Source: Corallium rubrum (Eukaryota > Cnidaria > Anthozoa > Scleralcyonacea > Coralliidae). From it: a DNA stretch of 64,000 nt. Shown here piece by piece: positions 84-48,180 of this stretch (the first letter of the stretch is position 1; each line of letters begins with the position of its first letter). The translations under genes and the position numbers were made by a program. The stretch is from NCBI GenBank assembly GCA_964035015.1, contig CAXIUP010000124.1:77501-141500 (forward strand). Direction: 5' to 3'. The notes under the pieces are model-generated. The model was given only the letters and a program-made list of their open reading frames with translations, was not told the DNA's origin and did no database searches.

Positions 84-3000
84 TCATTTGCATTTTCTCT
101 TGTTCTTTTTTTTTCTGGACTTCCCAATTTTTTTGGCCTTTTTGCACGTTTCCACCTCACTCTCAGCCTGCTTCTCTTCAGGTTCCACTTCAACTACCAC
201 ATTGCTTAGGCAATCCTGCTTTCTCTCCCTGCAGTGTTCTCGCTTCCCAGTAACCCAATAATTGGTATCTTGCTTTGAATATTGCCTTTTAGGACGTTCT
301 CGATGATAAAGGGTTGATTGACGATGCTCCATGCGGAGGACATCTGCAGGACTATCCCAGTTGTTGCATTTTCGCCTCACTACATTGCGAGCTGCATCAT
401 TATTTTTCTCTACAGCTGAAAGAACAATACAGTATTAGGAAAAATACACAGGTAGCATATTGAATCTATTTCAGGCACCTCTGCTTCTTTAAATATTTCT
501 TGTATGTGTACTGTACTGTACTGTACTGTACTGTACTGTACTGTACTGTACTGTACTGTACTGTACTGTACTGTACTGTACTGTACTGTACTGTACTGTA
601 CTGTACTGTACTGTACTGTACTGTACTGTACTGTACTGTACTGTACTGTACTGTACTGTACTGTAGCTTACCTTGTCCAGAAAACTGCTTAATATTTCCA
701 TATTTTTTCAAAAAATAACCAACATGATAAGCAGTAACATGCATGTATGGTGTCACATTAGCTCTTCCATATCCCTTCCTTTTATGGCCAAGGCTAAGGA
801 AGAGATTTACCCATCTTTTGATCTGTACAAATGGGAATATTTAAGCAAACTATGTTAGTCAAAAAATAATAGAATACTCTAAAAGGTTGGTGTACTGCCA
901 AGATAGTGTATAGGAGATCCAATGTTTTTAAGCGATGGCGTTTCATGTATTTCAGTGGTACACCAACCTTTTAGAGTATTCCATTTGTATTTCTACATTG
1001 CGTATGCAGCACAACACATCTATATCACCATATTAGTTATATTCTGGTACTAATAGTTTTGTCCTGGTATGTACAGTATTTAAATCAATGTTTGTTACCT
1101 CATATGAGTAGTTTGTTGTATTTTCTGGCTCCATTGAAGTTATTGTCTTTTTATAGATGTCTGCAAAGTCCTAAATACAGTAATTGAACATTTTCATTAG
1201 GAATTTATAAGACATTTTACTACTTATTTTTCTACAAGAAAACTGTATAAATGTATAAAAACAATTTTCACCTTCCATGTCTGTACAACTGTGGCTCTAG
1301 TATCATTGTGAATGCCCATGTCAGTGTTCAGTATTTTGTCTGGCCAAAGTTCCAAAAGCCTCTTTTTTTCATTCCCCATCAGTGATGTCCAATCCATTGT
1401 GATGACCCCTTTGGCATCGTCTTGCTTTTGCCATACATTAAATGATACACCACAGCTATTTATAATTTTTACAATAGCCTTCAAGTGCACACCCTTTTCC
1501 ATCCCACGCGCCTTCAGATTGTCTTCCTTCTCATCTCTTTCCATGGCATCATCAAGAACATTCGTCAACAAGACATCTGTTATTCGCAGGAGGAGGTGCA
1601 GCTCATCAGGAATTACATGGTCAAGAGGAACATTAAGCAATGGCTTGCAAACACAACAGTACTCCTTTTTGCCATTGCTCGCATACTTTATCACTTCAGA
1701 TAGCGTAAGTGACATTGGAGAAGTGCTGTAGTATGTCTCTTCCATTGACATATTATACCTTTTTCAAGTAGTAATGATAATTAGTGTGCAATACATCAAC
1801 TGACACTCAGGGCTGGATTAAGCATGTGGGGAGCCCTCTAAAGTATATGTGTGTGGGGGTGGGGGGGGGGGGGCATCTTCACCATTTGCACCATGGTCAA
1901 TCTGGCTTGCTTACACTACAGGCGTATGGAAGTTATATAACTCATATACAAGGTATTAGTGTAATTTGTAATTTACTTGCCTGTTGTCCTTATGAATCTT
2001 ACACCAAATACATGAATAGTTGGATGTTGCACCACTGCGGCCGTTTACAATGAGCAAAAACTAATAAATTCTCAAGAATATATGGAAATATATTTCATGG
2101 CTTGGCAGTAATTGTAAGTCAATTACAGAAAAACTAGTCACTTTCAGACTTTTTTTATTCTAACCTTGTAATCACCTCCAAGGAAAATCTCCACAGGAAT
2201 TTTTTGTCCTGGTCGTATTTCCACATGACCCTCCTTAATAATATCATTAATGTCTCTTATTGCATCTGCAAAGCCTATTTTGATACTATCATAGGACTCG
2301 GACCCAGCAAGTACAGCCACTGTAATTGTACCTAATGCAATAAATTGTTAAAAACATCATTTATAGATGAAAAGTATAAATGAATTAAACCGTGTATTGA
2401 ATAAAATCAGGTACATGCGATATACATGTAGTACCAAGAATATGTCCCCATCAGGAATTTTTTCCTACCTCGGCTTGAGAGAATTTCATCTTTTTTCTCA
2501 AGTATGGCAAAACTCAGCAAAACAAACCCAGTCAATCTTGTCATTCTGGCACCATCACCACTAATTTTGACTTTTACAGGCTGATTAATGTTGAGGTATC
2601 CTGCTTTCTCCTGAAACAAAGACACCAGTTAAGTTATGGAATTTAGAAAAGATTTTATTTCAAACCACCCTCCTTTCAAATAGATACCCACCACAATATT
2701 TTGGTGATAATTCTCATATATTTTTACATATGTCATAAAACTAGTTCTGGAACATACCAATGTCTTCAACTTATTTGCCAGTTTCTCTTTGAATGACACT
2801 TGGGCTCCGGGACAACTGCCTGGAATGGGAGAGATCACACAACCGCTGTCAATCTTGTGCCGACATTCCTTAACCAGGTAGGATCTTGGTAGATCTTCAA
2901 ATACCATAGCCATCTCATGCACAAACTTATCGCTCACTCCAAACTTATCTACCAAATATAGTAGGCTTTCCACTTTGGCCTTTTCATCATTGGTCAATTG

Positions 3001-3918
3001 TTCATAGTGCTTGGTCGCTGGTCCTGAAGATACTTGTGTCGTGGCCTGGATATTGGTGGGTTGCGAGTTTTGCTTTAATGCTATATTGTACCTGTTGGCA
3101 TGGTCATCTGTCACATGCATTGAGTCGAGATGAAAACCAAAGGCCTCAGAGAACCACAAGGCTTTCTGTGCTTTTGATGAGAATTCACTTATTCTTCTTT
3201 TCTTTTGTCTACCAGACACAGCTTCCAGAGATGTTAATCTCCGTGATACTCCACCTCTCTCTAGCTGCTTAATTTGGGTTTCCATTCTTTTATTTCCTTC
3301 TTTCTCTATGTCAATTTCTCTCTGCAACTCTTCCATCATTTCTTCAAAAAGTATTTGTGTTGATTCTTCCAAATTATCATACTCCCTTTTCCAATTCTCT
3401 ACTTCGTTCTCTAACTCACAATTAACTTCTTCTAAAGCAGTTTTCTTGTTTTCCAAACAGTTTATCTTGCCCTGCCATTGTTCAGCAGTCACAATATCAC
3501 TGTTTAGGATGGCTAATTTTCTCCAACTGTTGTTAAAATTCTCCCTTTGCTGTTTACTACCACCTCTGTTTAATTTCTTTAGTTGGGCTCTGGCCTTGCT
3601 AACTTCTGCCTTGAGACGAGATTGGAGTCTTAGACTGCTGTTATCAACTTTGAAAGCTTCGCCCGGAATATGACTGTTTAATATATCCAAGTAGTTTTGA
3701 TCTGGTTCTTTCAATGTTTCCCACTCGATAAATGTCTTATTCTTTATAGAAAGGTGACAAAGGACCTGGTCTCCTGTACTTGCTTGTTTTTCGATATAAA
3801 CAAGTTTGTTTCTTGGGCTTTCTCCGTTTATTAGAATATTGACTTCATTAGCATTAATAGCAGCAGCAGCTGACATTTCCTCATTTGCATTTCTACATAA
3901 ATTCAAACTTTCGCGCAC
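84..3918 (-). CDS. RAG1/Transib-fold (DDE) protein, 8 exons, intact
   Basis: I reconstructed eight exons on the minus strand: 3918-2758, 2610-2469, 2331-2165, 2060-1981, 1758-1272, 1170-1099, 822-672 and 415-84. Junctions are GT-AG except one GC-AG (donor after 1981). All phases agree and the product is 863 residues with no internal stop. A start at Met15 is an alternative. Residues ~95-225 are a coiled coil, followed by a basic RQKKRR patch. The C-terminal half has ISGDG (D406), LGGDYK (D488), CIWC (C507, C510), PDELH (H571), YMHVTAYH (H731, H736) and VEKNND (E756). The end is Lys-rich. Known: RAG1 uses D600, D708, C727/C730, H937/H942 and E962. Distances D-C (19), H-H (5) and H-E (20) are identical here. 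Inferred: an RNase H-like DDE protein of the RAG1/Transib/CMC clan, catalytic or domesticated. I recall multi-copy cnidarian relatives of unknown function. No terminal inverted repeats are visible around it. Confidence 0.82.
508..665. repeat. (CTGTA)n microsatellite in an intron
   Basis: About 31 perfect copies of a 5-bp unit fill most of the last intron (416-671) of the RAG1-like gene, directly after its splice donor at 671. All frames through the repeat stay open for long stretches, so apparent small proteins here are artefacts. Confidence 0.95.
871..982. mobile_element. 112-bp palindromic MITE in an intron
   Basis: Inverted ends of about 26 bases (core GAATACTCTAAAAGG and its complement) bracket a short spacer. 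It lies inside the intron between exons 6 and 7 of the RAG1-like gene and does not touch either splice site. No clear target duplication was found. Confidence 0.7.
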
Positions 3919-4059: not shown

Positions 4060-4570
4060 TACATTTCTGATCAGACTTTGAATAGAATAATTACAAAATA
4101 GCCCAACTTCAAGATATGAAACCGCAACGACGACAAATAAAAAGGAAAGATGAAGAGTACGATGAAATGCGTAGTTTCGTACACTTGTCAAATAAGATAG
4201 AAACCAAGTCAGAAGATGCTTCATGTACTCTTAATATTGGAAATTCTGAAGAGAAAGGTCAGTCATTATTTAGTTCGCCATGTTGACCGCTGCTAGTGTG
4301 GCAGTCTAAATTTTATATCGAAAACCGCAACGAGCTGAACATCCATGAAGTTTTTATTACAATATTTAAGTACTATATGCGTTGTGCCATCTGTAATAGA
4401 TGGAAACTAATTGTTAACTTCAAAATTGAATGTGCTAGGAAGACATTTTTCCATATTCCCATTGTAAACCTTATTAATCTCACATGAGAGATCTGCCTAA
4501 ATTTTTTCTAAGTGAGCACGCGTTACGCGCATGCGTGTCCATTATTTCTCGCCATGTTTTTTCTTCTTTT
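4060..4570 (+). repeat. Dispersed repeat, diverged copy of 47400-48180
   Basis: The same order of landmarks (AAACCGCAACGA, TTCGCCATGTTG, a second AAAACCGCAACG, then ACGCGCATGCGTG followed by ATTATTTCTCGCCATG) recurs in the same orientation at 47.4-48.2 kb. Divergence is high, so both are old. It lies just upstream of the RAG1-like gene and may contain its 5' flank. I see no gene between 3919 and 4997. Confidence 0.6.
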
Positions 4571-7744: not shown

Positions 7745-9870
7745 AACATAATATAATAAAAACTTACTAACCGAGTTGGAGGTCTCCAGGGGAAAGTATT
7801 TGGGTTTTCGTATTTTCGAAGGCAAATATTTACCCATACTGATCGAGAAAAACGTGGTTAATAAGTAATTTGTCTTGGATTTTGGTTGATTTTTGTTTCA
7901 AGTTTTGAACGTTGTTTTCACCTCTGGAATTTTCGTGTTGGTTTACCTGTTAGCATTTTTGTGATATCCAGGTTTTTTCCTTTTTTAAATGAGCTCAGAA
8001 CATGGCCAGAAATTTGGGACATTTCGACTGCGCATACTCGGAATTTAGTAAACAAACATGGCGGAATTACTATATATAAAACATAAGGGTAGCGGCATAT
8101 AATCAAAATTTGAGCAAGTTCAGTTGTAGCTATAGTATTTGCATACGTCCCTGTGATACGAGAAAAACTTCGGTAGTCAAACAAAATTAGTTTCATACCG
8201 TATTTTTATCTCCGTGGCCTTCCATTTCTAGTGTGACTTCAGCATCGATCTGGCTAGTATTAACTATATACTTCAGCCCCATTTCCGCGAGAACGAACAG
8301 TTTAGTCCGGCCGTTATTGATCCGTTTTGTTTCTGGCCAAATATGCATACGTCCCTTCGTAAACAACACATTATCAAGTTTTCCTCCTGCGATTTTGAAG
8401 GCGATCTGTTTAGGTTAAGAAGATCCATTCTTAGCGTGAAAAACCATAAAAATCCTCCGATTCCAAATAACTATATTAATTATTACGCAATTAGTTTGGT
8501 GAGCACGGACGTTCATAAATATTGCCTAAACAGTTTTCTTTGAAACTATTTCGCCATGTTTGAAATCAACAAGAAGCTTAGAAGCCAGGCTTTTCAATAG
8601 TGAATAGTGTAGGATAAATGAGAAAATAGTGTACCGAGAGGGTAGTTAGTACTATTTTGTCCTTCGTACTGCCAGATATCCCTATATTTCCCTGTTAACA
8701 TGTTGTGAACTTGTTAACGCGCCAAGACATAGTGCGCGAAATTTGAATATGCAAACTCAATGTTTTGATATTCTAAATCGATTCAATTTGAATAAATTTA
8801 AGCAAAGGATTTCTTTGTCTACTGAACCTTGTCTACGTTATGCGGGAAAAGCTTCAGTGAAAGATGGTGATATTGCATTGAGTATTAGTATTCCGTACGA
8901 GTATTTGAGCAGTTGGTATGACGTGAGGCAAAGTGGCACATTGGGTGAGTCTAACTCGTTTAATAAAATTTTGAATGCGTTTATATCCCAATTTGGGATG
9001 CGTTTATAGCCATTTTATTTTGTTAATTATCATACAGAAAGTCGCTGGGTAAAAGGCGTGCGGTATCCAATTATCATACTGGAAGCCGCTGTACAACGCA
9101 GGCGCATGTCCCAAATTTTTTATTATTATTTTTTTAATTTTTTTTTTAACGACTTTATTGGACATTTACATAAAATTACTTAAAAATACCCAAACGGAAA
9201 AAAGCGCGAACGGGACTCGAGGACCCATGCGAGGCGCTTTCCCGTTGTAATTACAAATAGATATAAAAACAATCAAAAATCAGTCAATACAGTAAGTTGA
9301 TCATAGACCAATTGCTCGAAATCCACGATGCACCAACACACACGCACAGCCCAAGCCCATTCCTATTTCTGGCCATGTTGTCTCACCGAAACTTACCGGT
9401 CCGACAAAAAAGCATATTTACGGGGCGGTCAATATCGTAGGACCTGATCATTGAATGGAAACAAGCTCAGTCATAAAATATTTTCATGATTTTATTCCCC
9501 AGCTAGACGGACGAAACGGAATCCTCAAGGTGCAACAAAAATCCTGCTCGGCTCAACAAATTTTTCATGTAGACATTTGGCTTCAACAGTGTAAGAAAAT
9601 CATGAAATTTTCTCTTCATGTTTCTCTGAGATTATTCTAATAAATGTTGTTTTCTAACCTCTCACTAACTTCATTTTCTCGGTCTGTATATACCGTAAGT
9701 AACGGACCGAGTTTTTTCTCCTTCGATGGTACGGCCCTCAAACTCAGTCAGCGAGAGGTTGGTATATATACCTCAAAGATCGGGATATAAAATATCTCTA
9801 ATAGAGTCTTAAGAGAATAATAGAGTCCAAAACGGAACTAGCATTTAATTGTTCGTATTTGTCTTTTCCA
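7745..9870. other. Gene-poor repeat-rich stretch
   Basis: A phrase like TTACTAACCGAG...GAGGTCT near 7767 recurs near 10870 and 35030, marking an old repeat family. An 88-residue open frame at 8743-9009 (plus) has no motif I recognise. AAACTTACCGG...GTCAATATCGT near 9395 recurs near 11265. I see no convincing gene before 9876. Confidence 0.5.
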
Positions 9871-13004: not shown

Positions 13005-13397
13005 TCAAGGTAGTTCATCTTCTTGTTCCACAATCACTTTGATGTTCTCTGCAGCTGCTATGGCTGCTGCACGTTTAGGAACAAATTCCATTGCTTTCGG
13101 ATTCAGCTGCTGTTCTTCCGATGGAATTTCATCACACGCAAGCTCTAAGGGATATAGGTGCTGAATGGGTCTTTCCAGTAAGCCTTTGCTTGTTTCCACT
13201 TGAACTGCTTGCACTACACCGTCACGTCCTAGGTATGTTGCACGTACGATCGCCAATGGCCACTTCCCCCTGTTCTTCTCGTCTGACTTGACAAGCACCA
13301 CGTCTCCCTCAGATACGTCAAACTGAGTTCTTCCATGATTGAGATTGTGTCTTTCTCTCAAAGCGGTCATGTATTCTTTCGCCCATCTTCGCCACAT
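13005..13397 (-). pseudogene. BEL/Pao C-terminal (DUF5641-like) domain
   Basis: An open segment of 130 residues contains RHNLNHGRTQFDVSEGDVVL and, after KNRGKWPLAIV, a GRDGVVQAVQVET stretch ending in RPIQHLYPLE. Known: this layout lies downstream of integrase in Pao-type polyproteins. It is open by itself, but the frame joining it to integrase is broken. Confidence 0.82.
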
Positions 13398-13469
13398 GAC
13401 ACCCTTACAGGACTTTAGATATCTGGCTCGCTTCCGAAGTCCCTCGTCCTCTTCGTGCCACGGCTGCTG

Positions 13470-14644
13470 CTACGGGAGTGAACTTGACCTCTGGAACAGA
13501 AACGTCGAGGGGATCAGTATAGGTATTTCCACATCATCTTCCACGTAGGACAAGGGTCTTCTATTGATTTGGATTTCCACGTCCAGAATCACCTTACTCA
13601 ACTCGGACCAGCTAAGCGTCGCAGCTCCAATCGTCTTGTACATGGCTCCCTTCACCACTCCGATGAGGCGCTCGAATTGTCCGCCCCACCAAGGGGCTCG
13701 GGACAAGTAATATTAGGCAACAGTTTTAGCTGCACCGCTCGGCTCAAACTGCAGGCGAATAGGACGAGATATGCTTTTCCTTCTTTCTTGCACGTTTTCT
13801 TGTATTTAATGGGCCCAGCAAAATCTACTCAAATGACTTCAAACGCCGCGTTCCCTTCAGTTCTGTCTTTTGGGAGGATTCCAGGTGGCGGTGTTCGTAC
13901 TGCTATTGCTCGGAATCTTTTGCAGCCCGAACACTCGCTAGTAATTGCTTTGGTCAACTGCCTCAGCTTCGGAATCCAGTATCTTTCTCTTACCACCGCC
14001 ATAGTGAGACTTACTCCTCCATGAAGGGATTCGCAATGCAATCGCTGTACTAGCCTTCGGGTAAATTGAGCTTCACTGGGCAAGTATATGGGATACTCCC
14101 CTTGGATTCTTCCTCTGCATTCTGCTAGTCCTTGGGCATTGACTTGTAGATTAAGCTGGCTCTTCCTCTGCTCGTAGTCTGGTGTCGTGCTATTGCGGAG
14201 CTGCACGCGCTTTATCCACCAAGTGCGGCTGTTGTCCACCTCTTCTGTGGTTAAGGGGCCACTCCGCTTGGTTTTATTTTTGCAGTTGTACAGGAATCTC
14301 TCGATTAACCAGCAGCTCGTCAAGGGTGTTAGTTGCCGTTTCTGCTTGTGCCACACACAGGACATTCTTGATAATCTTGGCTTCTGCCTCTGAGGCTGGA
14401 GAGCTCTTGGAAACAGGGTTCTCTGGCCATTGGTCGGGATTCTGGAGCCACTTCGGTCCGTTCCACCAAATTGTCGGCTCGCTTGCGGATCCGCCACGGC
14501 TAGCCAAGTTGGCAGGGTTATCTTGGGTGGGGACATGTCTCCACTGGATTTCTGGGTGTTCCCGGATCTTTCGCGCTCGATTCTCCACGAACTGGTTGAA
14601 TTGCCCATTTCCACAGATCCAGTATAGGGCGATCGTACTGTCAA
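13470..14644 (-). pseudogene. BEL/Pao integrase, broken
   Basis: The 13829-14644 segment carries the H-H-C-C zinc-binding region (RLHCESLHGG..., then SECSGCKRF). The 13470-13706 segment carries PWWGGQFERLIGVVK, which is near the third catalytic acidic position of integrase cores. A frame break separates them near 13.7-13.83 kb, so no continuous integrase remains. Confidence 0.85.
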
Positions 14645-15009
14645 GCCAGCCGTAGATGGTTGGTTCAGGGAGGCCTTGTAGGGCGTTGCGCACGTTCGAG
14701 ACCAGATTCGTTGCGACGTGGGCGGATACCAGCTCGAGACAGGGAACGGTTAGGTCTTGCTTAGCCATCCGGCTTTGGCTGCAATTATTGGGTATTCCCT
14801 GAATGTTGTCGAACCACGGAATACACTGCAGCGCCAACTCCTTGAGTTGATGCGTCACCAAACACATGCAATTCGAAACTCGAAACCGATTCTTTGTAGT
14901 CCACAATAGGGCGGGGCACTGTTTCTCCCGTTGGTAGTGATTGCTCCCACTTCATCCAACGTCTTCTCAGCGACCCGTCTAGCTCAGGTGTCCCAAGGCA
15001 ATTTGGCAC
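14274..15009 (-). pseudogene. BEL/Pao RNase H region, broken
   Basis: Two overlapping frames hold it. The first (14785-15009) has ELHVFGDASTQGVGAAVYS, an RNase H strand with its first Asp. The second (14274-14906) has SRMAKQDLTVPCLELVSA and GWLDSTIALYWI, matching the second half. A frameshift lies near 14.8-14.9 kb. Confidence 0.82.
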
Positions 15010-16435
15010 AGCAGACGTCTCGATAGATGAGCTTCCCTTCCAAGGTCGTCGGCGAAACCAACCCTAAGGGATCGTAGATCTTCGCTAGCTTCCTGAGGAT
15101 TTCACGTTTCGTTATTTTGGCGACGGCGCCAGGGAAAGGAACGGTTAGAGTGTCCTTTGACTTTTCCCATTTCAACCCAAGCATCTTTGATTCGTTTGGT
15201 TGTACCCCCAACTGTTGCTTCGCGTAGGATTGTTCATTTTCATCTTTGGGCAAGTCCGCTGCCTTCTCCAATTCCTTGACGTTTGAATTCCACTTGTGTA
15301 GTTTGAAGGTCGCGTCGTTGAAAATCTCGATGGCTCTTTCCTTGCGCTCGTTAGCTTGATCGATAGTTTGTCCTCCGGTAAGTAAATCGTCGACGTAGAG
15401 ACTTCTGCGTAACTCGAGGACCACCTCTGGATATTTCTTCTCCCAGGCATCTAGATGACAGTCGATCACTCCCCTCAAGAGGAAGGGAGATGGGGCCAGT
15501 CCCAACAGTGCTCGCGTAAAACGCAATGTTTGTAGCTCCAAATGTTCTCCACACCAGCAGTGAAAGCGGAGTGCATCGCGCACATTCTCTCATATCCGTA
15601 CTTGCAAAAAAGCTTTCTGAATGTCAGCGGTGACTGCGACAGGATACATACGTTGGTGAACGAGAATGTCCCACAACTTATTCTGGAGAGGCGGTCCAGG
15701 GTACAGACACTCATTCAATAACGGAGCGGTTGGGTTCTCTCTGGTCGATGCGTCGTACACGATTCTTAACTTTGTACTCTCGGAAGATTCTCGGATTACA
15801 GCCTTGTGGGCTATATAAAACTCTACCCCCTTGGCTGGGGCGTTGGCTGCTTCGACCACTCCTTCCTCCTTCTGTTCGTTGACGATGGATGGCATCGTAC
15901 GCGTTAACAACTCCGTCTCGCTGTAATTACTTGGTAAGGCTCTTGAGGCGGCGCAGGCTTCCTAGTTCATTACTCGGTAAAGGTGGATGACTTTCCTTCC
16001 AAGGTAGAGCAGCTTCATACCAGCCATCCGCATCTCTACGCAGTTGTTCTTTGAATTCATCGTAGACCACATTTTGGTCATAGTCGGCTGTATCTTTAAG
16101 TCCCAAGACATCCAAACGACATAAATCTTCATAATCCGATTGGCTGGTTTGGGTTAAAAGCATCATTCTTGGCCTGGGGACGTGATAAACCACCCGAGTT
16201 TGGTGAATTCTGCGACGGGCTCATACTCTTTCCCGACTCTTGGAGGAGTGTTGGTTTTGATTCTGGCATATTCCCCACTGCCAAGCACTATGTGAACCAG
16301 AAGCTGAGACTTTGTGGCACGTTCGGTCACTGTAATTCCCTCCAAGTGTGAGTAGTCGCTGATCAGTTCTCCATAGTTGGGATTATCCACAGACAACAAC
16401 TCGGCTTTGTCGACTTTCATCATTCTGACTTCCAT
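14984..16435 (-). pseudogene. BEL/Pao reverse transcriptase and linker, broken
   Basis: The 15590-15910 segment has KLRIVYDAS and VAVTADIQKAFLQVRI, the first RT Asp. The 14984-15583 segment has SLYVDDLLTGG, the catalytic YVDD. Segments 15927-16193 and 16163-16435 form the protease-RT linker. At least three frame breaks occur between them. Confidence 0.88.
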
Positions 16436-16445
16436 CTCGTGACTT

Positions 16446-16940
16446 CTAATGACGATCGAGCGATTCTATCTTCAACTGATAGGTTTCAAAGCGGACCTGT
16501 TTGTTGCACATCAACATGTCGATCTGCTTCGTCTCCACTTCAACGGGTTTAGCCTTAAGAACGATTAATTTAGCTGAGATGTAGGAGCTCCCTGCACCAG
16601 AGTCAATCAAGGCCCTACACATTACTCCACCAATTCTCACTGTGACAACAGGAAATATTCCCTCCTCGCCCTTGGTCGTGGTGTACACCATTTCTTCTTT
16701 TGTGGTCTGGTCTTCTTGGTCACAAATAGAGGTGTGATGTCGCTTGTCGCAGCGTTGACAGGTAGATTTACTTGGATAGTGAGCAGCTTTGTGGGTCCCT
16801 GCTGCGCAGTTAAAACATAGACGTTGTTTCTCTAACGCTTGTTTGCGGTTGGACGTCGTTATCACCTTGGAACATTCGTTGGCGTTGTGGTTTGTGTCTC
16901 GGCAATACACGCACCCCCGTACGCGAGTATTGAACAGCAA
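16446..16940 (-). pseudogene. BEL/Pao zinc knuckles and aspartic protease
   Basis: A 164-residue frame begins with cysteine-rich knuckles (CVYCRDTNHNANEC, CFNCAAGTHKAAH, CQRCDKRHHTSIC) and continues into CRALIDSGAGSSYISAKL, with the D-S-G of retropepsin-like proteases. The frame is open, but is cut off from gag upstream and RT downstream. Confidence 0.87.
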
Positions 16941-17913
16941 CGTGGTGATTGATCGTCGACAGGTTGCTGGTCGATCGGATTACGTCGGGTCCATGCACAA
17001 GGTCAAGGCTTCGGTCAGCTTCACGAAGTCCCAACTTTCCCACTCTGGATCTGATCGCACTAAATCGCCTCGAATCCCTGGCAGCTTGTCTAGCGTCATC
17101 GCCACATTTCCATTTATTTTCTCCAGACTTCCCATCGTCTCCAGTGACTGCACTGCGTAAGACAAGTTCTCACAAAACTCGTGAATTATTTTGATGTTGA
17201 CATTAGGGATAATTATCGGCAGGTCAAAATCTGTTTGGTATATGCTTTGATAATCTCCGAGTCCTTCCCGTATTTATCCTTCAATATGCTCTTAGCTCTG
17301 TTATAGCCCTCATTGGTGAATGGTAGCGCTTCGACAGTTCTACGGACTTTAGTGTGAAGTAACTCGCGCAAGTAGGAAAACTTTGTCACATTTGGCACAC
17401 TCGTCTTGTCGACAGATCGTCTCACTAAATTGTCCCCAGAATCGAGGCCAGTCTTGGTAAGACCCATCGAACTTCGAAATTTCGAGCTTCGGTGGCGTTG
17501 CCGTTGGTTAATTGATCTTCAGGCTTCAACTCTGCTTGAAACGTCATTCGTGTTTCATGAAGTTCGTGTTCAAATCTGAGTTCTTGTTCTTGTACTTTCC
17601 GTTCACAATCCGTTTTAAAGTCGTCTCGGAATCTTAGCAAACGGACCACTTCAACATCAGCTTCGGCTAATTTCTCCTGAATCTCTGCGACCCAATTTCC
17701 GATTTCATTGAGGTCTTCCTTTGCGGCACTCTTTAGAGCCTCGACTTCTCGCTTATCGACTTCTCGCTTACAGTTATCCACTTCGGAGATGGTCGTTTTT
17801 AGCGCGTTTTCATGGCGTTCGATAGCTTCATACCTTTGCGCGTTGAGTATCTTTTCCGTTCTCCACATAGTTATCTTAAGCTGGAAAAGCTTGGTTTGAA
17901 GCGTTTCTTCCAT
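16810..17913 (-). pseudogene. BEL/Pao gag, broken
   Basis: The 17425-17913 segment starts MEETLQTKLFQLKITMW and is largely coiled coil. Later pieces at 17213-17467 (LLHTKVRRTVEALPFTNEGY, SILKDKYG) and 16980-17165 have the look of Pao-type gag. At least two frameshifts separate them. The Met at 17913 lies ~90 bases inside the primer-binding site and fits the original start. Confidence 0.82.
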
Positions 17914-18002
17914 AATTTGTTGTTGTCACAATTATTCAATGTCGCCTGACGAAGACTGCGTTTCTTTGCTTTGTTTCAAGCTTTATCTCACTCTCACTGC
18001 AA

Positions 18003-37179: not shown

Positions 37180-38510
37180 CAGGATCCTATAGGATCCTGT
37201 AGGATCCTGTCAGGATCCTAAGTATGACAGGATCCTAAGCAGGATCCTAACAGGATCCTGAACGTAGCAGGATCCTAGCCAGGATCCTGACAGCATCCTG
37301 AACTTTGCAGGATCCTAATTAAGGTCCTGACAGGATCCTAAACTTAACAGGAACCTAACCTAGGATCCCAAACTTCGCAGGATTCTAGCCAGGATCCTGA
37401 TAACATCCTGAACACTAGAGGAAGAAACTAGAGTAAACTAAATTAACTTTATTTATACTGAAAAGCCTTAGCAGTCATATTTGAACTGTTCTTTTTAGAA
37501 GTCAAGTAACGAGTATCTCTTATTGGTTCAGTGTTAGCACGGGAGGAAGCTATGTAGGATCCTAATCAAGATCCTGACAGGATCCTAAACCTAATATGAT
37601 CATAACGAGGATCCTGACAGGATTCCAAGCTTTACAGAAGCCTATAATCAGAATCTTGGTTAGGGAGCTCAGAATCTTTGTTAGGGAACATCCTGAAATC
37701 AATATGAAGATCTTTTTATGAAGGATACCATTATTTAAAACTAGACATTCTAGGATCCTGAGTAGGGTCCTACCAAGAAAATCTAGGTTCCTGAGTAGAA
37801 TCCTACCAGGAAAATCTAGGGTCCTGAGTAGGATCCAGTACTAGGAAAATTTAGGATCCTGAGTAGGATCCTAGCAGGAATATCTAGGATTCCGAGTAAG
37901 ATCCTACCAAGAAAATCTAGGATCCTGAGTAGGATCTTACCAAGAAAATCTAGGTTCCTGAGTAGGATCCTACCAAGAAAATCTAGGATCCTATCAAGAA
38001 AATCTAGGATCCTGAGTAGGATTTTACCAAGAAAATCTAGGTTCCTGAGTAGGATCCTACCAAGAAAATCTAGGATCCTACAAAGAAAATCTAGGATCCT
38101 ATCAAGAAAATCTAGGATCCTGAGTAGGATCTTACCAAGAAAATCTAGGTTCCTGAATAGGATCCTACCAAGAAAATCTAGGATCTTACAAAGAAAATCT
38201 AGGATCTTACAAAGAAAATCTAGGATCCTATCAAGAAAATCTAGGATCCTGAGTAGGATCTTACCAAGAAAATCTAGGATCCTGAGTAGGATCTTACCAA
38301 GAAAATCTAGGATCCTGAGTAGGATCCTACCAGGATATCCTGAGAAGGATCCCGGGAGAGAGGCAGGTGCATGGGTGGGAGTAGGAAAGGTCGGCACTCG
38401 GCAGGAGCAACTCTAGATCCTACCAGGAAAATTTAGAATCCTGACAATTAATAGCAGCACCCTGAGCAGGATCTTCCTGGGAAAATATAGTGTAGGATCC
38501 TAACATAAAT
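37180..38510. repeat. GGATCCT degenerate tandem array 1
   Basis: CAGGATCCTGA and CTAGGATCCTGAGTAGGAT units repeat dozens of times, with a regular ~27-bp CTAGGATCCTGAGTAGGATCTTACCAAGAAAA phase in 37.8-38.33 kb (quoted here as a pattern). A non-repeat gap lies at 37430-37555. A 193-residue frame at 37816-38397 (minus) reads through the array as LRILDFLGKI repeats; it probably is not a gene. Confidence 0.9.
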
Positions 38511-38552
38511 GACATTAATAACAGAGAAACTGATCAGGGTCATTCCCAGTTA

Positions 38553-39200
38553 AGGTGGCTCCACACAGTTTCTTGAAAAATGGAAAATACAAGTTTGAGA
38601 GTCCAAAACACTACGCGTGCATAAACAATTCGGGAAAAGAATAAAACTAAATGTTATGCATAGTTAAACAGTCTGACAATCAAAAACTGTTACCAAATAA
38701 ATAGCAACAGTTGTTGTTATGGCAAGAATAACGTTTCAAAATGGCTGCCAATTACCCTTCAAACTAATTAAATTTGAAAAAAACTTTTGTGACTCCCAAT
38801 TTTTTTTCATTAAAACGTTTCTTGAAGTATGAGTAATCAATAGGCCGATTTTAGAAAAATTCTGTAGAACGAATAATATTTTCCCGGAAAAATCATGTTA
38901 GTTAGTTTTTAAAAAAATTCGTTCTGCAGAATTTTTTTAAAATCGGCATATTGATTACTCATAACACAAGAAAAGTTTTAACGAAAGAAAAATTGGGGGT
39001 CACCAAAGTTTTTTTCGAATTAAATTAGTTTGAAGGGTAATTGGTAGCCATTTTGAAACGTCATTGTTGCCATAGCAACAACTGTTGCTATTTATTTGGT
39101 AGCAGTTTTTGATTGTCAGACTGTTTAACTATGCATAACATTAGTTTTATTCTTTTTCCGAATTGTTTAATCACCTATTTTGGTCTCTCAAATTTCTCTC
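38553..39200. mobile_element. Fold-back MITE, GGTGGCTCCA ends, copy 1
   Basis: The left arm runs from AAGGTGGCTCCACACAG through AACAATTCGGGAAAAGAAT to GCAACAGTTGTTGTTATGG. The right arm repeats these inverted but is truncated before the GGTGGCTCC end. A fuller copy is at 59547-60233. Confidence 0.82.
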
Positions 39201-40640
39201 TTCGAGTCTTAGACAAATAATGTCAGACACTCAGACAGAGTGATGTAATGAAAGGGCCGTTTTGGTCGGCTCAAGAAAGAATTACTAAGAACTTGCCAAA
39301 TCTTGTAAGATCTTGTAAAATCCAGCCAAAAATCTTGTAGAATACAATATTACATCTGACATACAATTTATCGATCAGTGTATATATATACTCGAAATTT
39401 GGACTGAGACGTGCCATAATGAATATCATTCAACGCAGTGCCACTCAGGTAGGGTTAAACTTATTTTATTCCCGAGATTTAGTGTCATTTCTTTGACTGC
39501 GTGTGCTAGATGCGGCTTATTTTTGGTGCTTGATAGCTAATGTAGCCAATAGCTTCGCATAGACTTCAATTTCAAGATAAATTGTAACTATATATTAAAA
39601 AATCTACAGTTTCAAACCAGTCACAGTTGTTGTTCGAATGTTCTCAGGATGTCGCCGCTTGATAGCGACGTAGTGTACAATATAATTCAGTTTGTAACTG
39701 AGAAAATTAATTAGATTTGACTAGTCTTTTGTAGTTACAGTCTACAGGTATCCTAATTGGTGCCTAGGCTTGCTGAAGGTTGTCCATCTGATGGAACTGA
39801 TGAGTGTAATAGTCTGGCATTGGGCACCCGTAGAAATGGGGTTGTTAATCGTTGATTTATTTGTTGCTGTCTAGGTTTGCTGATGGAGCTTCCTTTGACA
39901 AGTACATGTACAATTGTCTGGAATTATACAGAGTAAAATTACTATGAATACAGTATTAATAAAATAAAGTAATATAATAGCTCAGGGGAGGAATCCAAAC
40001 AGAGTTTTGAATAAAAATAATTTTTAAGCCAATCAACAAACCTAGTGGACTTTCTCATTACTTTGAGGTGTGGATAAATAAAATTGTGTCTGATCACTGC
40101 CTCACTCTACTGCGGCTTAATTGTGATGGATGGTCACTGTAAAATTTTGCATAATTGTTTATTAATTTTAACTTCTTGTCTGTGGATGCTTCCATATTTC
40201 AATTGTTATTATTTTTTACCAGCTTTTGTTTTATATAGCCATGACTTTCTAAGGGCTTATAACAACTGGTATTGCATTGAAATTATTAATGTAATTACTG
40301 TAGATAATGGATGTCTTGGGTAATGGCATTCAGGGGACAAAAATTTGGGAAATATGGAAGTATCCACAATTTATTGTTTACTGGCTAATGTATTATATAC
40401 ACTAGTACTGTAAATTTGTACCTGTACAGTAGTCCCTCAGATATATTGACGATTAATAATGACAAATAAATTATTCTAGCAGGACAATATTTTGTGTTTT
40501 ACTGTATATTTTACCTGCACATTATTCTAGAGGATTTCATATATTATAATCCTCATGCCACAAGATCTAATTAGAGGATTTCACATATTCCAAGAAATCC
40601 TACATTTCATGTATCTTGCACAGGCATGACATTATTGTAT
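39201..40640. other. Gene-free stretch inside copy A
   Basis: A 79-residue open frame at 40084-40323 (plus) has no motif. No clear repeat boundary was found. This stretch has no counterpart in copy B. Confidence 0.5.
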
Positions 40641-41050
40641 ATTGGATTCTGGATAGGAACCCTATGCACCGCAGGATTCTACAGGATGCCAGCAGATTTT
40701 TTTTTATCTTTGTGTAGGATCCTACAAAAATGCCACTTGGATCCTATACAAGATCCTGTAGGATGCTGTACAAGATCCTGTAGGATCCTATACAAGATCC
40801 TGTAGGATCCTGTAGGATATTGTATAAGATCATGTAGCCAGTAGGATCTACATATCCTATAGGATCCAGTATAAGATCCTGTAGGATCCTAAGTAGAATC
40901 CTATAAGTTCTTGTACAAGATCTTACAGGATCCTGTAGGATCCTACTCAGCATCCAGTAGGATCCTAATTTAAGAAAATTTAGGATCCTGTTAGGATCAT
41001 ACCAGGATCCACTAGGATCCTACCAGGATCCTACTCAGGATTTCTACCAG
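40641..41050. repeat. GGATCCT degenerate tandem array 2
   Basis: The same unit type as array 1 (AGATCCTGTAGGATCCTGT, AGGATCCTACTCAGGAT). It ends where sequence shared with copy B resumes (ATAATAAAAGGCCACCATGG), so both arrays and the DNA between them are a net gain relative to copy B. Confidence 0.9.
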
Positions 41051-41215
41051 GGATAATAAAAGGCCACCATGGTAGGAGAGACAGTTTTTAACCATTTTCT
41101 CACTAAGGTTCTTCCCTTGACAAGTAAAATCATCTCGCATTAGCCAAAGTAACTCTGTTCTTAGCCAGAGGAAAATACTAAGAGGCCACCACAGTAGGGA
41201 AATGGTTAATGAAGT
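41051..41215. mobile_element. MITE with TTAACC.TTTC..CAC ends
   Basis: AACCATTTTCTCACTAAGGTTCTTCCC near 41090 (pattern) and GGGAAATGGTTAA near 41197 form the ends. TTCTTCCCTTGACAAGTAAA and TTAGCCAGAG.AAAATACTAA are inside. Relatives lie near 10600, 37093 and 56253-56476. Its right edge borders the 3' end of the zinc-finger gene. Confidence 0.65.
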
Positions 41216-42561
41216 TCAGTCATGTGCTTTACCAATGCATTAGCTAAGTCAAATGTGACATCACATTTCAAGCATATGTACTGCATCCCATTTGGTTCTG
41301 TGGCTTCAAGTTCATGGCTCAACAAATGTCGATCAAATGCTTTATAATGTAAATTCATGTTACAGTAATTACACTTGAAACTTTTTCCTTTGTTACACGT
41401 ATGTGTCTTTTGATGATTTACAAAACTAGATGGGTGGGAAAACGCTTTGTCACAGACATCACATTTGAATGGTTTCTCTCCAGTATGTGTTCTTTTATGA
41501 TATACTAAGCCACTTGACAGGGAAAATGTCTTCTCACAGACATCACATTTGAATGGTTTCTCCCCAGTATGTGTCCTTTTATGATATACTAAGCCACTTG
41601 AGTGGGAATATGTCTTCTTACAGACATCACATTTGAAAGGTTTCTCTCCAGTATGTGTTCTTTTATGATATACTAAGCTACTTGACTTGGAAAATGTCTT
41701 GACACAGAGATCACATTTGAATGGTTTCTCCCCAGTATGTGTTCTTTTATGATATACTAAGCCACTTGAGTGGAAATATGTCTTCTCACAGACATCACAT
41801 TTGAATGGTTTCTCCCCAGTATGTGTTCTTTTATGATATAGTAAGCTACTTGACTGGGAAAATGTCTTGTCACAGACATCACATTTGAATGGTTTCTGTC
41901 CAGTATGTGTTCTTTTATGAGATAGTAAGCCACTTGACTGGGAAAATGTCTTGACACAGAGATCACATTTGAATGGTTTCTGTCCAGTATGTGTTCTTTT
42001 ATGATATACTAAGCCACTTGAGTGGAAATATGTCTTCTCACAGACATCACATTTGAATGGTTTCTCCCCAGTATGTGTTCTTTTATGATATAGTAAGCTA
42101 CTTGACTGGGAAAATGTCTTGTCACAGACATCACATTTGAAAGGTTTCTCTCCAGTATGTGTTCTTTTATGATATACTAAGCCACTTGACTGGGAAAATG
42201 TCTTCTCACAGACATCACATTTGAATGGTTTCTCTCCAGTATGTGTTCTTTTATGATAGAGTAAGCGACTTGAATAGATAAATCTCTTGTTACAGACATC
42301 ACATTTGAATGGTTTCTCTACAGTATGTAATACCATATGACGTCTTAAACTTGCTAAACTGCCAAATGTCTTGGTGCAGGCTGGACACCTACGAGACTTT
42401 TTACCATTCATGCTAGAACTCCTTTTCGTCAAGTCAGAATTATTACTCACAGTAGATCCTTCACGTTTTGGACAGCTCTTCCTCTTATCAACTCTCCCCA
42501 CACTACCTTTTAATTTCCAACAAAATATGTGAAATATAAACTGAAATTCACAACACTTCAA
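41206..42561 (-). CDS. C2H2 zinc-finger protein, 14 fingers
   Basis: An uninterrupted 451-residue frame encodes fourteen C2H2 fingers. The first is CPACTKTFGSLASLRRH, eleven are regular CD[VL]C...YHKRTH fingers joined by HTGEKPFK linkers, and the last two (CNYCNMNLHYKAFDRH, CLKCDVTFDLANALVKH) are irregular. Known: such arrays bind DNA in the nucleus and often act as transcription repressors. No KRAB, SCAN or BTB domain is visible. A basic stretch (KRKSCPKRE, KKSRR) precedes the fingers. Fingers 4-6 and 7-9 are near-identical blocks. The Met at 42561 may not be the real start: an acceptor-like ...AATTAAAAG lies near 42500, so this could be a last exon. Copy B keeps only its 3' end (56472-56569). 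Confidence 0.88.
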   Translation of the reverse strand: MKCCEFQFIFHIFCWKLKGSVGRVDKRKSCPKREGSTVSNNSDLTKRSSSMNGKKSRRCPACTKTFGSLASLRRHMVLHTVEKPFKCDVCNKRFIYSSRLLYHKRTHTGEKPFKCDVCEKTFSQSSGLVYHKRTHTGEKPFKCDVCDKTFSQSSSLLYHKRTHTGEKPFKCDVCEKTYFHSSGLVYHKRTHTGQKPFKCDLCVKTFSQSSGLLSHKRTHTGQKPFKCDVCDKTFSQSSSLLYHKRTHTGEKPFKCDVCEKTYFHSSGLVYHKRTHTGEKPFKCDLCVKTFSKSSSLVYHKRTHTGEKPFKCDVCKKTYSHSSGLVYHKRTHTGEKPFKCDVCEKTFSLSSGLVYHKRTHTGEKPFKCDVCDKAFSHPSSFVNHQKTHTCNKGKSFKCNYCNMNLHYKAFDRHLLSHELEATEPNGMQYICLKCDVTFDLANALVKHMTELH

Positions 42562-42839
42562 AATAGCACATTAAATATCCGCAATCCGCATTCCGCATAA
42601 AGTAAACAAACACTTGACTCACTGAGCCTGCGTTCCAATTGACCTGCGTGACAAAAAGGCAAAAGGGCAAACTACTTCATTTAAGTTCTAATATAATTCA
42701 TTTAAGGTCAAATAACGTTTAGCTTTAGGAAAATATGAAAAAAAATATTAAAATTGATATATTGAAAAAAGACTCCTAGGCCGAAAAAATCAGTATGGAA
42801 ACAAAAGTTAATATGTTGGAAAAAAGCAGGACAGCGTCG

Positions 42840-43577: not shown

Positions 43578-46010
43578 TCATTCAAATCGTCCAAAGTACT
43601 TGCGCCGCTGCTCACTTGCTTGTACGAAATCTTTAGCAATTTTGAAGGTACAGACATCGTCAATGCGGTTCTTGTGAATGGTGCTAAACATTCTGTTGTT
43701 TAAACTGTTTGCGGACATTGTTGACCGTAACCACGATTTAATTCGTCGCATGACGCTAAAGCTTCTCTCAGCGGTTGCTGACACTAGAGGCACGGAATTG
43801 TAAAGACATAACAACTTGTCGATTTCAGGAAGGCTTTCTTTTGAACTTTGTTTCTTGTTCAAGACATCACAAATGGTGGAGACCTTGGTAACTTTCCTCA
43901 GAGGAATTTCGGATTCCCTGTTGTAAAGCTTGATGTGAACAGGAAGTTCTTGAAGCTCGTTCTTTAGCTCTTGTAGGTCGATTACCTCCGAAAGATCACC
44001 CAGCTTGTCTACAAGCTCATTGGAACTGGAATATTCCTTATTTGCTCCATACAAAAGACAACTTTCTATTGCCTTCAGAACTTGCAGGTCATCTTGGTCG
44101 AAGCGAGTCTTGATGGCTTCTTTGATAGCATCCAATGTTTCATAATAAATACGTAGTAGCTCTTCTTTCTCATTTAAGGTGACTGGTGCAATTGGAGTGC
44201 TGGAATGGATTACGTAGTCCATCATGTAGGCAGGAGTGGTTCTCTTTCTCTTTGCCAAAATCGGCTCAGTCATTATCACAGTGCTGCTCCTGTCGATTCG
44301 TGTTTTGTTGAACACCGTTTTCATCATGCTGTACTCCAGTTATCTTCTCTGCTTTGGTGAATAGACGCTCGAATTCTTCAGTTGATCTGAATTCCTGTAG
44401 GCGAATGTAATGCTTGTCAATGCTTGCTGTAGCTTGTTCTGCCGTCAGGCTTGCACTTTGCAACTGCTTTGAGTTATTCTCAAGTAGGTATGCTAGCTCA
44501 TTCATTGCAACCAGCTTGAACACTTCAGGAAAAGACTTGAGTTTTCGCAGCAACCCGTTTGATTTTGCTCGGCATTCTGGTGCGACACTTACATCCGTGG
44601 ACAAGGTCTTCAAGGTCTCTTGGAGCTCGCGGTTCTTCTTTAGAATAACATGTGCAGCAGCTCCTCTTGTAGTCCACCGTGTTCTTGAAAGATTTCGCAG
44701 CTTTAAGTTGCTCTGGGTACTTTCAGGATTGTCTGACAGTTCCTTCTGGATATTGTCAAAAAGCAAAACTCTCTTTGGCTTACACCAGCAAGAGCATAAA
44801 TATCTTCACAGAAATCTTGAGCGTCAGCAACCATTCTGGATAGTGATGTTGCATCTTTGTAGACTAGCTCGTTGCAGTGAACAAAGCAGTGAATGTAAAG
44901 TGCATGTTTGCAAACTTCATCTTTTACCAAAACCGCCAACCGTTTCATGGCCGATGCCCCATCAAATGCCATTCCAGCCATCTTTTGTGTGGCCATATTG
45001 CATCGGACCAGTATATCCTGTACATACTTTAGCAGGGCTGCAGATGATAGTCCTTCGTCACATGGTATAACGCCGATAAAATCTTCCAAAATCTCGTAGT
45101 TTTCATTGCAGTGGCGAACAGAAAAAGACAACTGTTCAGTTTTTGAAATGTCACTTGACTCGTCACAAATGATTGCATAAAATCTGCTCGCATTCACGTC
45201 ATTTATCAAATTCTTTCTTTCCCTTAGCACCAATTGTTCTTCTTGCTCGACTAAAATGTCATGAGACATATACTGGTTTTCTTTCAAAAGAAGATTTAAT
45301 CCTGCATGGTCGATGGCCTTGTCTTTGTTGAACTGGAAAATGTTTGATGCTTCGTCGGTATGTCCTCTTATTGCAACGCCCTGTCGAAGAAGTGTTTTCA
45401 AAGTGTTCAAATGCGCTATAAGGCCTTGTCGTCTCAGATTCTGCTGCTCTTTGACCTGATCATCTATCTGACACTCAACTGTCGGTTGGTTTCTTCTTGC
45501 ATGTCTCATGGCACTCTTGTGGTTGTCACTTTCGTCATGATCAGCTAATCGTTCCATACCTTTCTTCCAGTTGCAGAACCCAGGAGCGGAATCAGAGAAG
45601 ATAAATGGTGAAATATCGTGAGCCTGTTTGTATTGAGTACAGACTTCGCAGAAAGCTGCATGCTTCTCACGGTGATACCACAGCCATTTGTATTTTTGGA
45701 GCCATTCAGATTGGAAAAATCTTCCTTTGTTTTTGCTACAAAGCTTCTCTCCCTCGTTAAACTCGCTCCTAACTTTTATCCATGGATCAACAATCACTTC
45801 TGACGTTTCGGGTCCGGATTCAGGAGTATCAGAGCTACCTGATGGAACAGCAATTTCCTTCTCAGGTGTCGTTTCAGCATCTTCTGTTGTCAGTTCACCA
45901 CTTAATTCTTGTGTACAGTTCTTAAAAAAATGATGCGATTGTGGTTTGGCCAGTTGCATTAGCGGTATTTTTATTTTTGTTCTCTGCATCTCTCTTTGCC
46001 CGTTCAGCAC
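43578..46010 (-). pseudogene. hAT transposase, TTF zinc finger type, two frameshifts
   Basis: Three overlapping frames cover the whole protein. 46010-44703 (435 residues) has a TTF-type zinc finger (RFFQSEWLQKYKWL, AAFCEVCTQY) and the catalytic region (FYAIICDESSDISKTEQLS, then MAFDGASAMK). 44766-44266 holds the helical insertion (LSRTRWTTRGAA...). 44327-43578 ends in the hAT dimerisation domain (SATAERSFSVMRRIKSWLRS). Frameshifts lie near 44.77 and 44.29 kb. Known: relatives include ZMYM1/ZMYM5-like and '52 kDa repressor' type proteins, all hAT-derived. The lesions are few, so it died recently or carries assembly errors. Confidence 0.9.
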
Positions 46011-46064
46011 GTGGCATTAATGAATATTTCTATGCAAAAATAAAATAGTACATGCACTACAGTC

Positions 46065-46598: not shown

Positions 46599-46939
46599 GG
46601 CACTGATCAAACGAGAGCGCAAGTCATCGCAAGTTTTAGCTTGTGCATAATCAAGCGCGGGGTTTCTACGGAGCGCTTCGAAAACATTGGTTATTTCATC
46701 AGAAATTTAAATTTTAAAAGTACGTCTACATGCTCATAGAATTTAATACTTTCCAAAAAGATTCATCTGACTCAAAGCTTTCTACCAATACATATATGAT
46801 GTCTGTAGCTGCTGTATTTCAAACATGGCGAGAAATGGTGGACATAGAGAGGCGGAGCTAAAGCCCTTTTAAACTAGCACCTATGTCGTGCGGTCGTCAC
46901 AGTTCCGCGGTTCAGAAGAAAAGAGAACAACTAATTTAT

Positions 46940-47097
46940 GGGTTCAATTCCTGCCGGAGGGCCTGTGTAGTTGCATTTTTCGCAACTGCTCCCGGTTTGG
47001 TCTTAAAATGTATATATTCCACACTCGAATTTTCCTTCACCCTAAATCCTTAGAACATGCCATGTAATCGAGTGAAATGCCCAATATCATTTATAAT
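46940..47097 (+). mobile_element. tRNA-derived SINE, 5'-truncated
   Basis: It begins inside the B box (GGTTCAATTCC) and is otherwise identical to the full copy at 47168, ending at ATATCATTTATAAT. Confidence 0.85.
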
Positions 47098-47167
47098 ATA
47101 CCCAATTCTCTCCTGGCATTACCACCTTATTATATGTACAGAACTCGCGATCAAGCTCTCGGCAACG

Positions 47168-47375
47168 GCCTCCGTGGCTCAGTGGTCAGAGCATTGCACT
47201 AGCATCGCAAGGTCGTGGGTTCAATTCCTGCCGGAGGGCCTGTGTAGTTGCATTTTTCGCAACTGCTCCCGGTTTGGTCTTAAAATGTATATATTCCACA
47301 CTCGAATTTTCCTTCACCCTAAATCCTTAGAACATGCCATGTAATCGAGTGAAATGCCCAATATCATTTATAATT
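47168..47375 (+). mobile_element. tRNA-Ala-derived SINE
   Basis: A tRNA-like head (47168-47240) has an A box TGGCTCAGTGG, an anticodon loop CTAGCAT (AGC, alanine type) and a B box GGTTCAATTCC. The acceptor arms (GCCTCCG and CGGAGGG) pair at six of seven positions. A ~135-bp unrelated tail follows. The mismatched stems and the tail argue against a working tRNA gene. Confidence 0.82.
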
Positions 47376-47399
47376 TATGCAATGTTGGATGAAATCTTC

Positions 47400-48180
47400 A
47401 TTCGATGATCAGAAAATACTGAAGCTTTGAGATTGAAAACCGCAACAACGCCAAATACAGGCTAGAAATGAAGAATATCACCGCAAAGACGGATCGTTAT
47501 AGTAGCCGAATCAGATCGAAACTTGTACGGAAATAGTATACTTCTGTTTGATTTTCGATAACGTGAGCAGCAAGGTCCATTACCAGAAATTTCGGACAAA
47601 ATGGCGCCCGCTTTCGGTTTAATTAATTCTGGATTTTCAAGATGGTGTCGAAATATATACAGTGATGCGTTTCACATCTACTACCCGAAATTTATTCTCA
47701 TATTATTTCTATGTATTTTCCACCTATCCATCTTCGACTTTTATGTATTATCTATGTATTCCTTTACGACTTCGGCGCTTTTCAAAAGGTCTAACATCAT
47801 GAATATCAATTTGAATTTCAATTCTGGAGAACAAGCTGATACCGCTATCACTACATATCACGGGAGCAGAAGTCCTTCGCCATATTGGCTTATGTTAGAC
47901 TTGTGCTCAAAATAGTATATCAAAAACCGCAACGGATTTAATGTCTGTGGCCTATCGCTCATGATATTTATATCGCAGATGTGTTGCACTATACGATTCA
48001 GATTGAAACATTTGAAATAATTTAAAAATTGGCACTGCTACGACGATTGTTTCACTCATCCTCTATCTAAGTCCTATTAATCTTGCAGAACTTTTCTAGT
48101 CAAAATTTTTGTAAGTGGGCATGCATTACGCGCATGCGTGACCATTATTTCTCGCCATGAGTTATAAATTAAAGTGGATG
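47400..48180 (+). repeat. Dispersed repeat, diverged copy of 4060-4570
   Basis: AAAACCGCAACAACG, TTCGCCATATTGGC, AAAAACCGCAACGG and ACGCGCATGCGTGACC occur in the same order as near 4.1-4.55 kb. An open frame at 47601-47915 (plus) has no known motif. Confidence 0.6.

Follow-up and report, generated by a model that had tools for sequence, protein, structure and literature searches.

The 64,000-nucleotide stretch of the red coral Corallium rubrum analyzed here (contig CAXIUP010000124.1, positions 77,501–141,500; the whole stretch is referred to as the window) carries at its left end a gene of eight minus-strand exons, which encodes the transposase of a recently mobile cut-and-paste DNA transposon. 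Comparison of sequence profiles supports homology of the transposase core to RAG1 and to the RAG1-like protein RAG1L, and complete copies of the element elsewhere in the genome contain a second, convergent gene for a chromodomain protein. The explanation as a whole, in which the element represents a new RAG1-related lineage of transposons with two genes and a RAG1/RAG1L-homologous core, is considered quite likely to be right. Central to the origin of antibody-gene recombination is the question of how a RAG1-type transposase acquired a partner able to read histone marks, and a recently mobile RAG1-homologous enzyme accompanied by a convergent chromodomain gene provides an independent comparison. 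No description of such an element was found among the top-ranked papers of the literature searches, Repbase Reports and subscription journals lying outside the search. Relatives presumably occur among the uncharacterized proteins of fish, fungi and other cnidarians; should this be so, the novelty would lie only in the description as a transposon family.

The transposase gene and its relationship to RAG1

The gene extends from an ATG at position 3876 to position 84, and in-frame splicing of its exons yields 849 residues and a stop codon. An earlier note, made from the letters alone, had described an intact eight-exon gene of 863 residues; the open frame and the in-frame splicing are confirmed, while the length becomes 849 counted from the ATG, the extra 14 codons beginning at a GTG at 3918. 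Residue numbers given here are those of that note minus 14. The acceptor is AG in all seven introns, and the donor is GT in six of them and GC in intron 4 (AG/GCAAGT). The putative catalytic and zinc-binding residues are D392, D474, C493/C496, H557 (in a D-x-L-H motif), H717/H722 and E742, distributed over the exons as follows, with ratios of nonsynonymous to synonymous substitution (dN/dS) calculated against the homologous locus L015.

2758..3876, minus strand: exon 1, encoding the first 373 residues, which look coiled-coil-like by eye and match no Pfam domain significantly; dN/dS 0.13
2469..2610, minus strand: exon 2, putative first catalytic aspartate D392, in an SGDG motif that all 14 sequences of the family alignment share; outside the RAG1 stretches compared
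2165..2331, minus strand: exon 3, putative second catalytic aspartate D474 (GGDYK), aligned with RAG1 GTGYDEK
1981..2060, minus strand: exon 4, putative zinc cysteines C493/C496; GC donor
1272..1758, minus strand: exon 5, containing the insertion region and its D-E-L-H motif (H557), aligned with RAG1 D-A-L-H and lancelet RAG1L D-A-T-H; dN/dS 0.11
1099..1170, minus strand: exon 6, in the spliced frame
672..822, minus strand: exon 7, TPYMHxxxxH with putative zinc histidines H717/H722, aligned with RAG1 TNYxHKTLAH
84..415, minus strand: exon 8, putative catalytic E742, C-terminal tail and stop, in the spliced frame; acceptor TCTTTCAG

The genome searched for relatives was that of the same assembly as the window (474 Mb in 312 contigs), where the core gave at least 119 matches, with 97 of the 427 candidates scored. 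A family profile was built from the candidate and 13 of 30 fetched loci. In a search of the PDB with this profile, all top 16 matches are RAG1 or RAG1L chains (E 2.9e-5 to 0.0031), and the next match, an unrelated protein, is at 0.34. Comparison by hhalign with an alignment of human RAG1 and lancelet RAG1L gave a probability of 96.7 and an E-value of 3.9e-10 over 282 columns. The lancelet RAG1L match of the profile runs unbroken from the CxxC region via the DxLH motif to HxxxxH. On the PDB ranking, the lancelet match and the hhalign score, the likeness is regarded as more than chance, as the earlier note had judged from three exact spacings and local similarity.

The D-D-C2-H2-E order that the same note had read from the sequence is also borne out. 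The second aspartate and the CxxC, DxLH, HxxxxH and glutamate positions are in register with RAG1 and RAG1L in the hhalign alignment. The spacings of 19 residues from the second aspartate to the first cysteine, 5 between the histidines and 20 from histidine to glutamate are the same in the RAG1 stretches compared, and are constant in all family members scored: the first in the 12 members in which both residues were found (11 if the near-identical L071 and L072 are counted once), the other two in all 10 members reaching that region, out of 14 examined, spacings being left unscored where a stretch is missing or a motif unmatched.

Several observations speak against such a relationship, or at least limit it. 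Some of the 14 profile members are near-identical, and hhalign kept 11 of them. As a single sequence, the core has RAG1 as its best Pfam match (E 0.016), but the 13.7 bits are under the curated cut-off of 25; against the PDB, all 14 of its matches below E 10 are RAG1 chains, with E-values of 0.31 to 1.2, none of which is significant. Only five of the 14 members match the Pfam RAG1 model with an E-value of 1 or lower, the best at 0.0031. There is no Transib chain among the 25 PDB matches of the profile search, the Transib content of the library being unchecked. The full-length protein has no RAG1 match in Pfam.

The Pfam RAG1 model run directly on the same genome gave no matches, an uninformative result, the control for that search likewise giving none in 14 genomes. 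Among viral contigs, neither the single protein nor an IUPAC motif nor the profile detected relatives, and the profile detected none in prokaryote genomes. Weak Pfam matches of members of the transposase family to DUF1280 and DUF1258, domains of unknown function, were also observed, with E 0.022 in two and 0.015 in one.

A credible, though less favored, alternative is that the gene belongs to a lineage of the CMCT clade that is no closer to RAG1 than the other members, RAG1 reaching the top of the searches through its many solved structures and its curated model. PMC12730594 describes this clade as comprising EnSpm/CACTA, Mirage, Chapaev, Transib, Plavaka, ESTA and Lanisha, with C(2)C and H(3-4)H motifs in common, mostly CA..TG termini, target-site duplications of 2–5 bp (TA in ESTA) and an accessory TET/JBP gene in fungi; ESTA is also matched to RAG1 by HHpred there. 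The C(2)C and H(3-4)H motifs between the second aspartate and the glutamate, as well as the CA..TG termini, are all present here, and RAG1 and RAG1L are the only CMCT proteins that were compared. On the other hand, no Pfam family named as transposase is matched at E up to 1 by any of the 14 members, the aspartate–cysteine and histidine–glutamate spacings equal those of RAG1, the 2–5 bp duplication is absent, and the partner is a chromodomain protein instead of TET/JBP.

Purifying selection is shown for exons 1, 5 and 8 of the transposase, exon 8 having a dN/dS of 0.23 against L015, although all three ratios are rough, the synonymous sites being near saturation. For exon 1 of the second gene, comparison with the same locus gives a dN/dS of 0.28, while exons 2 and 3, with saturated synonymous sites, show proportions of nonsynonymous differences (pN) of 0.10 and 0.22.

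Ends, copies and target sites of the transposon

The exon 1 region, used as a DNA query, detects six places in the genome, the window's own included. The copies on contigs C1 and C25 are 99% identical to the window over kilobases, introns included, with 99.3% over 4.6 kb for C1. The C1 copy, L012, is a full element measuring 5,928 bp and bounded on each side by the same 21-bp inverted repeat, CATGGCGAGAAATAATGGACA; it has a stop in exon 8, and another copy, L013, has a frame change in exon 5. The following parts of the family were located in the window.

4536..4556, minus strand: 5' terminal inverted repeat, reading CATGGCGAGAAATAATGGACA on the minus strand; copies L007–L010 diverge right after it, and the same 21 bp are found at both ends of L012
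1..4556, minus strand: the part of the autonomous element inside the window; the 3' part, which contains the chromodomain gene in other copies, is hidden by Ns directly to the left of position 1
971..972, unstranded: empty site of a non-autonomous copy that is nested in the homologous locus L016; CCAACCTTT/TAGAG, 0-bp duplication relative to the window
46824..48159, minus strand: non-autonomous copy (miniature inverted-repeat transposable element, MITE) of the same family, with two nested inserts

Across the genome there are 346 occurrences of the end motif (173 + 173, with at most one mismatch), against none for the reversed-pattern control. One hundred of these places were listed, 60 fetched and 59 measured; 49 have both ends, and 10 were dropped for want of a right end. 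Non-autonomous copies of 600–625 bp (~614 bp) make up 46 of the 49, with a mean identity to the consensus of 98.7%. Inverted repeats and many dispersed young copies are the marks of a cut-and-paste DNA transposon. The short copies were probably mobilized in trans by the transposase, because their end sequence is shared with the full element. It has to be set against this assignment that in the window copy itself the second gene and the 3' end are not visible, being hidden in the N run.

The intact eight-exon frame and the low dN/dS might also be expected if the host had domesticated the gene from such a transposon. This is very improbable: the low dN/dS also fits selection on a transposon, and the C1 copy, nearly identical with introns included, sits elsewhere in the genome with inverted repeats on both sides.

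Intron 7 contains, at 507–665, a perfect 5-bp tandem repeat of TGTAC, the run length of which differs among copies (155, 45 and 25 bp). Intron 6 contains a 28-bp inverted repeat with arms at 868–895 and 958–985, at the site where L016 has its nested short copy. In the MITE at 46824–48159, one insert is a fragment that has a subfamily B end at 47578; being truncated and accompanied by a target deletion, it proved uninformative on duplication. The other insert is a piece of ~430 bp between repeated CATAAATTA, with a tRNA-Ala called inside it at 47168.

The copies give no indication that 2 bp or more of the target are duplicated, and in most of them not even 1 bp is, though a duplication of 1 bp may occur occasionally. 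Among the 49 two-ended copies, the flanks match over 2 bp in four (4.6 expected), over 3 bp in one (1.3 expected) and over 5 bp in none; the matches over 4 bp (p 0.047) and 6 bp come from two copies within AT repeats, L035 and L095. The cleanest empty site is that of a short copy inserted in a subfamily B element, where CCATAAA/insert/TCAAAC compares with CCATAAATCAAAC in two uninterrupted copies, 96.5–98.9% identical to the interrupted element, giving a duplication of 0 bp. Another reading, in which the terminal CATG results from the duplication of a 4-bp CATG target, was rejected because the empty-site junctions have no CATG.

A regular duplication of 1 bp on insertion, instead of none, is rather doubtful, but part of the evidence leans toward it. 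A match over 1 bp is found in 20 of the 49 copies, where 13.9 are expected (permutation p 0.038), as well as in all three subfamily B copies, and three poorer paralogous empty sites, 88–92% identical, have one extra base. The remaining 29 copies mismatch at 1 bp, as does L047, which was read outside this count, and the cleanest empty site has no duplicated base.

The second gene and the subfamilies

In L012, the second gene lies downstream of the transposase in convergent orientation and encodes, after splicing, a 216-residue protein with a chromodomain (Pfam Chromo, E 9.6e-11, over the curated cut-off), the PDB matches of which are mostly chromodomains of CDY, CBX and HP1. The second protein gave no match to kelch or PHD domains. 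L015, which is 67% identical at the DNA level and has stops in the transposase, retains the second gene (Chromo E 2.8e-7).

The transposase of subfamily B is 39–44% identical to that of the window family (subfamily A). Two copies of 4,818 and 4,773 bp and a third with a nested insert were found, bounded by the repeats CATTACCAGAAATTGCGGACA. The subfamily B second gene, read in F069, has a Chromo E-value of 4e-15 and is 31% identical to the L012 second protein (E 4e-35). Each of the three full elements in which the second gene was read has it in convergent orientation and with a chromodomain, and F, W and Y are seen by eye in the subfamily A and B proteins at what we take to be the positions of the HP1 aromatic cage.

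The C-terminal domain of the second protein is found at 58 places in the genome. For 30 of them, one of the 86 transposase matches entered in this count is no more than 5 kb away, in every case in convergent orientation, with 0.11 expected by chance; the other 28 have no entered transposase match within that distance, which weakens the case for a regular pairing.

Subfamily C transposases are more distant, with 26–30% identity, and the distant relatives L071–L085 mostly have single open frames. A convergent open frame is present at the four loci examined (L072, L076, L077 and L081), and in three of the four it contains a motif resembling MBT/chromo-barrel proteins, with a best E-value of 0.007. 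This reading concerns one exon, in which no single stretch is significant for the top matches; the 17 PDB matches are 14 L3MBTL chains, EAF3, KIAA1798 (presumably an MBT protein) and one unrelated protein, and there is no MBT or chromo-barrel match in Pfam for the subfamily C second gene. Homology of the second-gene C-terminal domain between subfamilies A/B and C was considered, but hhalign lends it no support (probability 0.6, E 0.093). The proposal that subfamily C elements start with CATGGCGA was likewise dropped, as the homology of L074 and L075 begins ~16 bp further out and the motif is near the 5' end in two of nine loci.

Comparison with known systems and a proposed mechanism

The element resembles RAG1/RAG1L and the RAGL transposons (ProtoRAG, TransibSU) in its homologous core, in the order and spacing of the second aspartate, C2, DxLH, H2 and glutamate, and in having two convergent genes; with Transib it has the RAG1-type transposase core in common. 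RAGL and Transib termini conform to a CAC heptamer-like consensus, while those found here are CATGGCGAG and CATTACCAG (CATGGCG and CATTACC). Transib is described in PMC7204232 and PMC4411706 as having one gene, 5-bp duplications and ends similar to recombination signal sequences. RAGL elements also produce 5-bp duplications and have a kelch-type RAG2L partner, which is lacking here. The RAG1 N-terminal zinc and RING domains are not recognized in the full-length protein by Pfam at E up to 10.

Because the 5-bp duplication, the CAC ends and the RAG2L partner were each looked for and not found, the element is not assigned to Transib or RAGL. The earlier description of the gene as RAG1/Transib-like is supported for RAG1, through profile homology, and not supported for Transib as such, 5-bp duplications and CAC termini having both been checked and found absent. 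The suggestion of a new branch, which that description had based on the N-terminus, is also favored. The mobile element, the convergent chromodomain gene of its other copies and the lack of a clear target duplication were not part of that description.

It is nevertheless conceivable, if unlikely, that this is a subgroup of Transib or RAGL transposons in which the ends and the partner gene have merely drifted. RAG1 and RAG1L are the sole significant PDB profile matches, the two convergent genes are as in RAGL, and six subfamily C relatives end in a Cx2Cx3GHx4C motif, which according to PMC7204232 defines the C-terminal tail of invertebrate RAG1L. The motif is not present in the window protein, and the six are among 30 relatives' frames, several of them partial. 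It is also the pattern of the common CCHC zinc knuckle and constitutes weak evidence, and drift would have to account for the lack of a 5-bp duplication, for the CATGGCG or CATTACC ends in place of CAC and for a chromodomain in place of the kelch/PHD of RAG2L.

Absence of a target duplication is shared with Spy, a DNA transposon that PMC12730594 places in the PIF/Harbinger-ISL2EU-Spy (PHIS) group; its lack of duplication is stated in the title of a paper cited there, Han 2014. The AAA/TTT target preference of Spy is not seen in the flanks here, and no IS5/Harbinger-type DDE transposase family appears among the Pfam matches, which give RAG1 instead. Within the literature covered, joining without target duplication would be the first case for a RAG1-related enzyme, and would indicate a near-blunt geometry.

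For the preferred reading, a new RAG1-related two-gene lineage, the following mechanism is proposed. Two copies of the transposase probably bind the CATGGCG inverted repeats and pair the ends. The cuts would be made by the D-D-E active site in a predicted RNase H fold, stabilized by the C2-H2 zinc site, and the ends would then be joined to the target bluntly or nearly so, with a stagger of 0 bp or at most 1 bp, leaving no duplication of 2 bp or more. Besides its chromodomain, the second protein has a C-terminal domain without a name. Its probable role is to bind a methylated histone tail and to steer, guide or protect the transposase complex in chromatin.

The second protein is comparable in this putative role to RAG2, the PHD finger of which reads histone marks, with a chromodomain here in place of the PHD finger. 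The parallel with the RAG1–RAG2 layout may reflect shared ancestry or convergence, the evidence deciding neither. It is weakened by lancelet RAG2L, which according to PMC7204232 has kelch repeats and no PHD. Tentatively, RAG1-type transposases might be more widely paired with convergent chromatin-reader genes, with a chromodomain in subfamilies A and B and an MBT/chromo-barrel-like domain in C, staggered joining having been lost. If this is true, RAG1–RAG2 would be one case of an older design, in which a recombinase and a reader of histone marks are combined in one mobile unit.

Elsewhere in the window, inverted ends CATGGCCAGAAAT...ATTTCTGGCCATG are found ~1.38 kb apart at 8001–9377, with a further single end at 61392, and perhaps represent a third related family. 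Long frames judged by eye resemble a BEL/Pao retroelement (13008–17925), a C2H2 zinc-finger gene (41209–42570), a hAT transposase (43581–46016) and a LINE (51827–55145). Arrays of AGGATCCT units occupy positions 37200–40938.

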